A DNA stretch of 64,000 nucleotides, from NCBI GenBank assembly GCA_030424845.1, contig JAUHWC010000003.1:257034-321033 (forward strand). Reading direction: 5' to 3'. The translations under genes and the position numbers were made by a program. The notes beneath the pieces are model-generated. The model was not told the DNA's origin. It was given only the letters and a program-made list of their open reading frames with translations, and searched no databases. Positions 30,704-34,372 of the stretch are shown here, piece after piece (the stretch's first letter is position 1; the number at the start of each line of letters is the position of its first letter). This DNA is from Alphaproteobacteria bacterium. GTDB taxonomy: Bacteria; Pseudomonadota; Alphaproteobacteria; Sphingomonadales; Sphingomonadaceae.

Positions 30704-32764
30704 TCAGCTTTCGGGAACGTTGCGGCGCAGTTCCTCCAGCCACACGTCGGCCACGGCATCGGATGGTGCGCGCCAGTCGCCACGCGGGGACAAGGCCCCG
30801 CCGGATGAGACCTTGGGGCCGTTGGGGATGGCGCTGCGCTTGAACTGGCTGAACTGGAAGAAGCGGACCAGGAACTTCTCAAGCCACTTGCGGATCGTGG
30901 CCAGGTCATACTGGTTGCGTGCAGCCTCGGGGAAATGGCTGGGCCAGTTGCCAGCCTCGATATCCTTCCATGCATGCCATGCCATGAAGGCCACCTTCGA
31001 AGGCGGCAGGCCCCAGCGCATGATGTTGTGCAGGTAGAAATCGTTGAGTTCGTAAGGGCCGACGGCGCTTTCGGTACTCTGCACCTCGCCGTTCTCGCCA
31101 ATCGGCACAAGCTCGGGCGTGATCTCGGTGTCGAGCACGGCCTGCAGGATTGCATCGGTTTCATGCGTGAACTGTTCTGACCGGATCGCCCAGCGGATGA
31201 GGTGCTGGATCAGCGTCTTGGGAACGCCCGCATTCACCGCGTAATGGCTCATGTGGTCGCCCACGCCATAGGTGCACCAGCCCAGCGCCAGCTCGGACAA
31301 ATCGCCGGTACCGATGACGAAGCCCTTGTGCTGGCTGGCGAGGCGAAACAGGTAGTCTGTGCGCAGGCCTGCCTGAACATTCTCGAATGTCACGTCATAG
31401 ACCGGTTTTCCGTCCGCAAACTCGTGGCCGATATCCTCCAGCATGCGGTTGGCGGCGGGACGGATGTCGATCTCCTCGGCATGGACATGGAATTTCTCCA
31501 TCAACCCCCAAGCGTTGGACCTGGTGTGATCGGTCGTGCCGAACCCGGGCATGGTATAGGCGCGGATGGTGTCGCGCGGCAGGCCCAGCCGGTCACACGT
31601 CTTGGCCGCCACTATCAGCGCATGGGTGGAGTCGAGCCCGCCGGAGATGCCGATGACGAGGCTCTTGGGATTGGTTGCCTCGACCCGGCGCATCAGGCCG
31701 TCGACCTGGATGTTGAACGCCTCGTAGCAATCCTCGTCAAGCTTGTGTTCGCGGTCAGGCACGAAGGGGAAGCGGGCGATCGGGCGGACTAGGCCGATAT
31801 CGCCGCCATGCGGATTGTGCTCCATCGCGATGGTGCGGAACCGGTCTGCCGGGCGGCGTGCTGCTTCTATCGCATCGTCGAAGGTCTTGTTGCGGATGCG
31901 GTCCCCGTGGATGCGCTCCACGTCCACATCCGCGATGGCGAGCTCGGGATGGCGGCGGAAGCGTTCGCTCTCGGCAAGCAGGTCGCCGAGTTCGTAGATG
32001 AAACCTTGTCCGTCCCACGCGTGGTCGGTGGTGCTTTCGCCATGGCCGGCGGCGGAATAGACATAGGCGCAGGAGGTGCGCGCCGAATGGCTGCGGGCAA
32101 GCAGGTGGCGCTCGTCGGACTTGCCGATGGTGATGTTCGAGGCAGAAAGGTTCGCGCAGATGGTGGCTCCGGCCAGCGCACCTTCGATGGCGGGCGGGGC
32201 GGGCGACCACATGTCCTCGCAGATCTCGACATGCAGCTTGAAACGATGGTTGCGGTTCGAGGCGAAGAGCAGGTCCGTGCCGAAGGGGACATCCTCGCCA
32301 TTCACGCGGATTGTCGCACCCTTCACGTTGCGGCCATGGGCATACCAGCGCTTTTCGTAGAACTCGCGATAGTTTGGCAGGTAGCTCTTCGGGATTGCGC
32401 CAAGCAGCTTGCCCGCCGCGATCACCAGCGCGCAATTGTAGAGCTGGCCATTGGCCACCAGCGGCGCGCCGATCACCATGACGGGCGATAGATCGCGGCT
32501 TGCTGCCACGACATCACCCACGGCAGCCTCGACCGTTTCGAGGAAGGCCGTCTGCATCACCAGGTCGTCCAGCATGTATGCGGACAGGCACATTTCGGGA
32601 TAGACCAGCAGGTCCACCTGGGCCGCATGCGCGCGCTGGGCTTCGTCGATGATGGCCGCGCAATTGTAGGCGACATCGGCAGTGCGCACTTCCGGCGTGC
32701 TGGTCGCGGTGCGGACATAGCCGTGCCGGTGCATGTCGTAGAAAGGATGGCTGTTGCTGCTCAT
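30704..32764 (-). CDS. nadE: Glutamine-dependent NAD+ synthase
   Basis: 686 residues from MSSNSHPFYDMH, the typical start. The N-terminal nitrilase-type glutaminase domain has Glu57 in VYPEMCLS, Lys in IPKSYLPNYREFYEKRWYA and the nucleophilic Cys in EICEDMW. The C-terminal synthetase domain has the P-loop GISGGLDSTHAL, YTMPGFGTTDHTRSNAWGLM, and GTGDLSELALGWCTYG. It makes NAD+ from deamido-NAD with ammonia from glutamine. The frame continues without a stop into an upstream HTH-coding segment. An internal GAGGA lies 13 bases before this ATG, so translation could also begin here. Confidence 0.97.
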   Translation of the reverse strand: MSSNSHPFYDMHRHGYVRTATSTPEVRTADVAYNCAAIIDEAQRAHAAQVDLLVYPEMCLSAYMLDDLVMQTAFLETVEAAVGDVVAASRDLSPVMVIGAPLVANGQLYNCALVIAAGKLLGAIPKSYLPNYREFYEKRWYAHGRNVKGATIRVNGEDVPFGTDLLFASNRNHRFKLHVEICEDMWSPAPPAIEGALAGATICANLSASNITIGKSDERHLLARSHSARTSCAYVYSAAGHGESTTDHAWDGQGFIYELGDLLAESERFRRHPELAIADVDVERIHGDRIRNKTFDDAIEAARRPADRFRTIAMEHNPHGGDIGLVRPIARFPFVPDREHKLDEDCYEAFNIQVDGLMRRVEATNPKSLVIGISGGLDSTHALIVAAKTCDRLGLPRDTIRAYTMPGFGTTDHTRSNAWGLMEKFHVHAEEIDIRPAANRMLEDIGHEFADGKPVYDVTFENVQAGLRTDYLFRLASQHKGFVIGTGDLSELALGWCTYGVGDHMSHYAVNAGVPKTLIQHLIRWAIRSEQFTHETDAILQAVLDTEITPELVPIGENGEVQSTESAVGPYELNDFYLHNIMRWGLPPSKVAFMAWHAWKDIEAGNWPSHFPEAARNQYDLATIRKWLEKFLVRFFQFSQFKRSAIPNGPKVSSGGALSPRGDWRAPSDAVADVWLEELRRNVPES

Positions 32765-33022
32765 GGTGTGTTTCGGTTCCTCGGGCGGAGCGGGAAGGGG
32801 CGGTTCGATCCAGTCCGCGGGATCGCAAATGCCCAGTTCGGCAAGGCGTTTCTGCACCGGTGCGCGCGGGATCTTGCCCTTGGCCTCCCAGCCATAGACA
32901 GTGCGGCTGGGCCACGGATCGGGCACGCCGAAGCGCGCGCCGAATTCTGCGGCGGATAGCGGCGGCTCCTGCGCCTCGCGCCAGGCGCGCAATTTCTGTC
33001 CGGCCAGATGCATAGCGCCCAT
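32765..33022 (-). CDS. In-frame HTH (XRE-like) domain upstream of NadE
   Basis: From ATG 33013 (MHLAGQKLRAWREAQEPPLS) or 33022, a helix-turn-helix domain is read in the same frame as nadE with no stop between. Helices are KLRAWREAQ, SAAEFGARFG, SRTVYGWEAKGKIP and RAPVQKRLAELG, joined by a Pro/Glu-rich linker to the NadE start. Proteins of this short type are usually free-standing regulators. The product would be a 769- or 772-residue HTH-NadE fusion, or two overlapping products. A perfect palindrome immediately upstream supports a DNA-binding role with autoregulation. Confidence 0.65.
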
Positions 33023-33025
33023 CCA

Positions 33026-33042
33026 GTATCCCAAAAGGATAC
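33026..33042. promoter_or_regulatory. Palindromic operator-like site between HTH-nadE and MFS gene
   Basis: GTATCC, five bases, GGATAC is a perfect 6-5-6 palindrome, 3 bases beyond the ATG at 33022 on the HTH side and 83 bases before the MFS start. It could be bound by the adjacent HTH protein. The function is inferred from symmetry and position. Confidence 0.55.
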
Positions 33043-33124
33043 CAAAGGAAAGCAAAGTTATTCGCCAGCTTGCCTCCCAACCTTCTTGCCGAATGCAAAA
33101 ACACTCGGCAGAGACCTGCTGCAA

Positions 33125-34372
33125 ATGCTCAACACCACCACATTCAGTCCCCTCCGGCACCGCACCTTCGCCCTCTTGGTGACAGGCAGCCTGCTGGCGA
33201 ACCTCGGCAATACGATCCAGTCCGTCGGCGCGGCATGGCATCTCACCGAAATGGGACAACCGGCCGACGTGGTTGCCCTGGCGCAGACAGCCTACAACCT
33301 GCCGATCATGTTGCTGGCGCTGCCGGCGGGCGCATGGTCGGACATGATCGACAAGAAGAAGCTGCTGCAGATTTCGCTGGTGCTGATGCTGGCGGTATCC
33401 ATCGCGCTGGCCGTGCTGGTGGAAATGGGAATGGCCGGCCCCGCGGTGACCATCGGCCTGACTGCCCTGCTGGCCTGCGGCGTAGCCTGCATCATCCCGG
33501 CAGCGGCATCGGCGGTGAACTTTTCCGTCCCGCGCGAACAGCTGGCAGCGGCGGTGGCGCTCAATATACTTGGCTTCAACGTGGCGCGCAGTTTCGGGCC
33601 GGCACTGGGCGGGGCGATCACCTCGCTGGGCGGGGCGAGCGCTGCCTTCATTGCCAATGGCGCGGCTTACCTGCTGGTCATCATCCTCTTGTGGCGCTGG
33701 CACCTGCCTGCCGCACCCAAGCCGCAAAAGCGAAGGATCGGCCCGGTCATGGCAGAGGGGCTGCGTTATGCCTTTGCCAGCCCGCAGATCCGCAACATCA
33801 TGCTGCGCGCTATCACCTTCACCACGGCTGGTGCCGCGGCCTGGGCGGTGATGCCGCTATATTCCAGCGAAGTGCTGGGGGCGGGCTCCTTCGTGTTCGG
33901 CCTGCTGTTGGCGGCACTGGGCCTAGGAGCGGTGATCGGCGCGGCGAGCGCGACGTGGTTCCGCAGCCGCTATTCGGCAGAAACGATCATTCGCGCATCC
34001 GGCCTGATCTATGGTTCCGGACTGGTGGCGGTTGCGCTGCAGCCGCCGCTCTGGGCCATCCTTGCCTTGCTGGTGATGGCTGGCGCCGGCTGGGTGCAGG
34101 CCCTGTCCGGCTTTGCGGTGGCGGGCCAGATGTGGTCACCGCAGAGCATTGTCGGGCGCGTGGCAGCCAAGATCAGCAGCGTAACATTCGGCGGGATCGC
34201 GATCGGCAGCTGGCTGTGGGGCCATTTCGCCGATGCCTATGGCATTACCACCGCTTTCATGGCTTCGGGCATTGCCATGATCGTGCTGCCGCTGATCGGC
34301 CTGTTTGTGCCGATGCCGGAGCATGCCCATGCCCAGCCCGGCGAGGCTGGGTCCGGGCAATCGCCTGACTAG
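33125..34372 (+). CDS. MFS transporter (EntS/TMF-like)
   Basis: A 415-residue inner-membrane transporter with about 12 hydrophobic helices. The start is MLNTTTFSPLRHRTFALLVT. It follows the pattern of the transmembrane-effector MFS branch that includes the enterobactin exporter EntS: LLANLGNTIQSVGAAWHL, SDMIDKKKLLQISLVLML as the motif-A region, and FNVARSFGPALGGAI. The C-terminus is hydrophilic (PEHAHAQPGE). It is divergent from the HTH-nadE gene across a 102-bp gap with a palindrome, so the two may be co-controlled. The substrate is unknown. Confidence 0.9.
   Translation: MLNTTTFSPLRHRTFALLVTGSLLANLGNTIQSVGAAWHLTEMGQPADVVALAQTAYNLPIMLLALPAGAWSDMIDKKKLLQISLVLMLAVSIALAVLVEMGMAGPAVTIGLTALLACGVACIIPAAASAVNFSVPREQLAAAVALNILGFNVARSFGPALGGAITSLGGASAAFIANGAAYLLVIILLWRWHLPAAPKPQKRRIGPVMAEGLRYAFASPQIRNIMLRAITFTTAGAAAWAVMPLYSSEVLGAGSFVFGLLLAALGLGAVIGAASATWFRSRYSAETIIRASGLIYGSGLVAVALQPPLWAILALLVMAGAGWVQALSGFAVAGQMWSPQSIVGRVAAKISSVTFGGIAIGSWLWGHFADAYGITTAFMASGIAMIVLPLIGLFVPMPEHAHAQPGEAGSGQSPD

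Follow-up and report, generated by a model that had tools for sequence, protein, structure and literature searches.

An NAD+ synthetase fused to a helix-turn-helix domain, with a predicted operator before its own start codon, in the family Sphingomonadaceae

Within a 64,000-nucleotide stretch of alphaproteobacterial DNA (hereafter the window), we detected a gene that joins a helix-turn-helix (HTH) domain to a glutamine-dependent NAD+ synthetase (NadE) in one reading frame, with a perfect inverted repeat just before the start codon. Comparison with related genomes suggests that this protein, HTH-NadE, probably controls its own production. The reading that we consider likely, by a good margin of belief, is single-target negative autoregulation. 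The product would be one polypeptide with a Cro/C1-like DNA-binding domain N-terminal to the enzyme, and the enzyme oligomer would bring the HTH domains together in pairs. These pairs would bind the 17-bp repeat, predicted to overlap the promoter and start region, and the bound protein would lower transcription of its own gene, so that the enzyme would limit its own level. Occupancy by substrates or products (NaAD, ATP, glutamine, NAD+) may tune the binding, though in the simplest form of the loop no ligand would be needed and the amount of enzyme would be the signal. The single frame, selection on the HTH, the enzyme residues, the site, the coupling between HTH and site, and the single target are each supported by the comparisons below, and some other protein could use the predicted site. 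The features, in window coordinates, are as follows.

30704..33013, minus strand: gene for the HTH-NadE fusion (769 aa), from the ATG at 33013 to the stop codon at 30704-30706; open and conserved frame, start set by alignment of 48 genes
32807..33013, minus strand: HTH domain, residues 1-69, recognition helix at about residues 36-44; from the alignment, AlphaFold and Cro/C1-like PDB neighbours with modest scores
32747..32806, minus strand: proline-rich linker, residues 70-89, containing the ancestral NadE ATG at 32764; fast-changing, low-confidence in the model
30707..32746, minus strand: glutamine-dependent NAD+ synthetase, residues 90-769; from NF002730, the 3dla alignment and invariant residues
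33026..33042, no strand: inverted repeat GTATCC-CAAAA-GGATAC, predicted operator, ending 12 nt before the ATG at 33013
33125..34372, plus strand: divergent MFS_3-family transporter (PF05977, 327 bits), with an intergenic region in common with the fusion gene

The initial annotation had described an HTH followed by a proline-rich linker and a complete NadE in one frame without a stop, a layout that our analysis confirmed: the minus-strand frame 33022..30704 is open throughout. Its length of about 770 residues also held (769-772 aa), but its start at 33022, from which 772 residues are counted, is probably not the true one. The protein that aligns with relatives begins MHLAGQKLRAW at the ATG at 33013, giving 769 residues, and since an ATG at this MHxAG position is conserved in 48/48 fused genes, as against 2/48 with an ATG 9 nt further upstream (33022 in the window), 33013 is the more likely translation start. 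The closest named relatives are an alphaproteobacterial MAG (95%) and Alteraurantiacibacter aquimixticola (89%).

By its sequence, the NadE part is a complete glutamine-dependent NAD+ synthetase with predicted activity. Residues 93-771 (in the 772-aa numbering) match the NAD(+) synthase family NF002730 with 1046 bits (cut-off 473), covering positions 3-676 of the 677 in the profile, and the solved NadE structure 3dla aligns over fusion residues 90-768. In 46 aligned sequences E140, K209 and C265, which we take to be the glutaminase Glu-Lys-Cys residues, are invariant, as is the SGGLDST loop (S457-T463), presumably the ATP loop of the form SGGxDS. The only Pfam domains found in the whole chain were NAD_synthase and CN_hydrolase, and the NMN adenylyltransferase and kinase domains of NadR are absent. 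NadE enzymes of the glutamine-dependent type are oligomers, and that of M. tuberculosis is an octamer.

The HTH domain is remote from known families by sequence. The N-terminus of the fusion matches Pfam HTH_31 weakly and below the cut-off (E about 0.03-0.037), the same family was matched in 7/47 HTH members at E up to 0.1 (best 8.5e-06), and the NCBIfam family carph-isopro also matched the window fusion weakly. Among themselves the domains are far more alike: in our HTH alignment, A1, which holds 47 of the 48 HTHs (L229 is absent), mean column identity is 69% and the stretch S-R-T-V-Y-G-W-E is nearly invariant. AlphaFold predicted the isolated domain as five helices (pLDDT 90.9). Confidence in the full-length model (mean pLDDT 80.8) is good for the HTH and for most of NadE, with residues 73-85 scoring under 50. 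The top Foldseek matches to the HTH model include MBF1, P22 c2, 434 and SinR, with TM scores of about 0.5-0.6 and none at E<0.001.

This type of HTH had been described as normally free-standing, which fails in this family: a wider HTH profile gave 53 strong matches (E<=1e-24), comprising 48 NadE fusions, 4 fusions to DAHP synthase and one free 77-aa frame. No third enzyme fusion was recognised with this profile in 298 family genomes, where four further matches were weak (G128, G227, G266 and G194; E 8.5e-06 to 6.3e-04). Another genome, G055 (L260), matched the original 83-residue HTH query weakly. Beyond the family, a search of 385 genomes of the class returned strong matches in the family only, and the three weak ones elsewhere (E 0.004-0.009) were unconvincing by eye.

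We surveyed 298 sampled genomes of the host's family (GTDB Sphingomonadaceae) with the 83-residue HTH as query, which matched 54 of them. Forty-eight of these matches were strong (E 1.5e-25 or better) and contained no internal stop, and HTH and NadE share one frame at all 48 loci read, though the locus in G176 is cut by its contig. By our own count the 48 fused genomes span 16 genera. An NF002730-type NadE scored above its cut-off in 150 of the 298 genomes, and our locus comparison rests on 149 nadE loci, 48 fused and 101 unfused. The partial matches G206 and G268 were left out of this set, G156 contributes two loci, and the partial G176 locus (L009) enters the site counts but not the tree. 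In five pairs (NG86), dN/dS was about 0.04-0.21 for the HTH and about 0.05-0.15 for NadE, and the linker evolves faster than either part. The comparison of close relatives proposed in the initial annotation found no stop between the domains in the 48 fused genes and thereby supports its idea of a regulator-enzyme hybrid. We rejected a chance loss of the stop codon of a former HTH gene, as the fusion is conserved in 48 genomes; sequence comparison confirms that it is real and more than chance.

A single polypeptide is the likely product of this frame. We also weighed a scheme with two products, in which the long HTH-NadE would regulate while a short NadE, started internally, would do most of the catalysis; the initial annotation had likewise offered an alternative NadE start at 32764. 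Two points favour such a scheme: 34/48 fused genes retain an ATG at the ancestral NadE start or close to it, and the window's own copy at 32764 has moderate Shine-Dalgarno pairing (-5.6 kcal/mol). The linker that would have to hold this start is 15-39 aa long (median 22.5 in the 48 fused genes), however, and it lacks any ATG in 14/48 and any of ATG, GTG and TTG in 10/48. Shine-Dalgarno pairing at the 34 internal ATGs is moreover at the level of random coding positions (mean -3.06 versus -2.57 kcal/mol, p 0.11) and weaker than at the starts of 96 unfused NadE genes (mean -4.79 kcal/mol, p 0.0014). The linkers without a start codon and the random-level pairing weaken an internal start as the main product, leaving the pairing of the window's own ATG in its favour, and we consider the two-product scheme improbable beside a single HTH-NadE chain.

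The predicted operator, on which the initial annotation was silent, carries most of the case for regulation. In the window, the perfect inverted repeat GTATCC-N5-GGATAC lies on the plus strand at 33026-33042, just before the fusion start codon, and the same repeat stands without mismatch at 46/48 fused genes, with one mismatch in L224 and three in L143. At a threshold of at most one mismatch it is found at 47/48 fused genes versus 0/101 unfused nadE genes, all of which have 3 or more mismatches across the roughly 480 nt that surround the NadE start. From base composition, a stretch of this length would hold a match with at most one mismatch with a probability of about 0.0007. The distance from the end of the repeat to the ATG is 9 nt in 35/48 fused genes, with a range of 4-12 and a value of 12 in the window.

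Genome-wide counts of the repeat point to a single target. The window's own genome holds one exact copy, at nadE, and we rejected the four 1-mismatch sites there as other targets: all lie inside long frames, two of them in gatA (TIGR00132). Exact copies occur in 61/298 family genomes, namely 46/48 fused and 15/250 others, and these 15 look like background because a control pattern, the repeat written backwards, occurs in 24/298 (own count). In eight fused genomes the exact repeat occurs a second time, in each case within a long frame. Seven of these second copies (L305-L311) were rejected as targets, as they lie inside a TldD-like frame, in the stretch EDGILKGYMQ (the one tested, L306, was TldD), and are probably a by-product of conserved codons; the eighth (G016, L312) lies within another long frame. 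The intergenic region 33014-33124 is common to the fusion gene and the divergent MFS_3 transporter. In the loci searched, which have short flanks for most genomes, an MFS transporter adjoins the fusion in near relatives only and thus cannot be the general target, though the repeat may also act on the transporter gene in those relatives.

The HTH and the site change together in the sequences compared. On a FastTree phylogeny of 148 NadE domains, all fused rows fall within one 99-row clade, and the fused state requires at least 14 changes, 9 of them forced by well-supported branches. Among 9 independent comparisons of a fused with an unfused row, the site follows in 8-9 and never goes the opposite way (sign test p 0.004-0.008). 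The fused gene without the standard site, L143, has TTATCT-TTTCG-GGATAA instead, and it is also the sole one of the 47 aligned HTHs in which Arg37 is changed (to Gln). A single fusion event, after which HTH and site were lost together several times, would be consistent with this distribution, as would gene transfer. We do not claim a single vertical history because distances between HTHs and between NadE domains agree weakly (rho 0.148, with 30/1000 permutations as high). The window's own genus, g1, contains fused genomes (G000, G014, G165, G285) beside unfused ones (G103, G213, G251); their NadE domains occupy separate regions of the tree, a pattern that may reflect transfer of the whole nadE gene.

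The position of the repeat bears on the direction of control. A site so near the promoter could serve several modes of control, and sequence does not fix the sign of regulation, so HTH-NadE might instead activate its own gene, or binding might only switch between modes according to ligand. The repeat ends 9 nt before the ATG in most fused genes, whereas activator sites usually lie further upstream, and we judge activation or a ligand switch unlikely and autorepression by HTH-NadE the better reading. A sigma-70 scan of 32950-33200 found no promoter, and the overlap of operator and promoter is a prediction. A CTTG box, poor in the window, starts 10-11 nt upstream of the repeat in 35/48 fused genes, and the right arm contains GATACT, a possible -10 element. 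Together these would place the transcript start near the ATG and yield a leaderless mRNA, which we offer only as a suggestion because the spacing is short (15-16), the window's box is poor and the sigma-70 scan was empty.

We also considered that the repeat might work as RNA, with a small hairpin before the start codon controlling translation and the HTH doing something else. If the mRNA begins upstream, the two arms could pair into a 6-bp stem closed by a 5-nt loop, and the Shine-Dalgarno pairing of the HTH starts is somewhat better than at random positions. The letters of the arms hardly vary among nadE fusions, however, as expected of a site read by a protein and not of a stem maintained for pairing only, and the presence of the repeat follows the HTH, which makes an RNA hairpin very doubtful. 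We found no point in favour of an assembly artefact, or of a former HTH gene that has recently and without function come to read through into nadE; the probability of either is negligible given the spread over 48 genomes and 16 genera, the purifying selection that acts on the HTH and a site that accompanies the fusion.

A second enzyme carries the same type of HTH. In genus g91, which supplied four weaker matches in the HTH survey of 298 genomes, the domain is fused to a class II DAHP synthase (PF01474, 687 bits in the one protein tested), at the following loci.

L259, L322-L334, L336, L337 and L339-L342: HTH-DAHP synthase loci, genus g91

We found the HTH in 27/61 sampled g91 genomes. Of these 27 genomes, 21 contain an exact TTACCC-N5-GGGTAA repeat, versus 1 of the 34 without the HTH (G711), while a control pattern had no matches in the 61 genomes. 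By coordinates, a copy stands directly before the HTH start in each of the 21, and in five g91 genomes another exact copy lies at a distance of 35-36 bp. Upstream regions were read in 18 genomes, namely 16 of the 27 HTH-bearing genomes together with G205 and G245. All 18 have DAHP synthase sequence in the HTH frame and a repeat that ends 9-12 nt before the ATG, and the repeat matches at 12/12 positions in 11 genomes, at 11 in six and at 10 in one (L334). The exact repeat in G711 (L335:886-902), where no HTH gene was seen, adjoins by eye a glycosyltransferase-like frame; it is either chance or the site of another user.

Two relatives of the domain are free-standing and, by eye, have imperfect repeats of their own before their starts: TTATTC-N5-GGATAA in G036 (L258:998-1216), where the HTH precedes a primase-like frame as in a mobile element, and CTTCCC-N5-GGGTAG in G723 (L338). 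Free-standing HTHs with their own repeats suggest that the module derives from small self-regulating repressors. Across the cases compared, which include few independent ones, residue 37 is Arg where the outer base of the half-site is G, and Gln, Ser or Leu where it is T. A broader reading, to which we give about even weight, is that HTH and cognate operator form a portable module from mobile-element self-repressors. On at least two occasions in this family a biosynthetic enzyme would have acquired this module, the cases so far being NAD synthetase and class II DAHP synthase, and each such enzyme would repress only its own gene, with half-site and recognition helix co-evolving so that Arg37 would go with an outer G and Gln, Ser or Leu with an outer T.

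Enzymes with a DNA-binding domain are a known kind, the trigger enzymes, and by anatomy HTH-NadE resembles them, with a predicted intact enzyme and a DNA-binding domain predicted by the model on one chain. The sections available of one study list BirA, NadR, PepA, PutA and PyrH as trigger enzymes of E. coli and report PutA as single-target (PMC8249747). NadR is similar in that it couples an enzyme of NAD biosynthesis to a DNA-binding domain through which NAD genes are regulated (PMC8249747, in the same sections), but it is an NMN adenylyltransferase with several targets (available parts of PMC5343134 and PMC8249747), whereas HTH-NadE is an NAD synthetase whose only exact site is its own. PutA and BirA also combine enzyme and DNA-binding domain in one chain, and PutA too acts on a single target at its own promoter region (PMC8249747, sections available), yet these enzymes are unrelated to NadE. 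The HTH-DAHP synthase of g91 is like HTH-NadE in its N-terminal HTH of the same type and its repeat with a 5-nt spacer, matched at no fewer than 10/12 positions (at least) in 18/18 genomes, and differs in its unrelated enzyme, its half-site TTACCC and the second exact site in five genomes.

Among Proteobacteria, NadR is limited to Enterobacteriales, with NadQ and NrtR elsewhere, and these two likewise control NAD biosynthesis genes through palindromic sites, according to the part of the source available (PMC5343134); they differ from HTH-NadE in being separate regulator proteins with another DNA-binding domain. The NrtR_WHD domain (PF21906) was absent from the fusion (Pfam, E up to 1) and from its own genome. 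An NrtR-type domain was found in 14/296 family genomes, one of which (G065) also has the fusion. A literature search of titles and abstract starts, in a coverage that leaves most subscription journals outside, returned no HTH-NadE or HTH-DAHP synthase fusion among the matches listed.

With an NrtR-type domain in so few of its genomes, little is known of how NAD+ synthesis is controlled in this family. An NAD synthetase carrying its own repressor would, if true, give an essential cofactor one of the most compact control loops that could exist, and it is directly testable because the protein and its site are available together with natural variants that lack the HTH. The parallel with DAHP synthase hints at a route by which biosynthetic enzymes more generally may come to regulate themselves.
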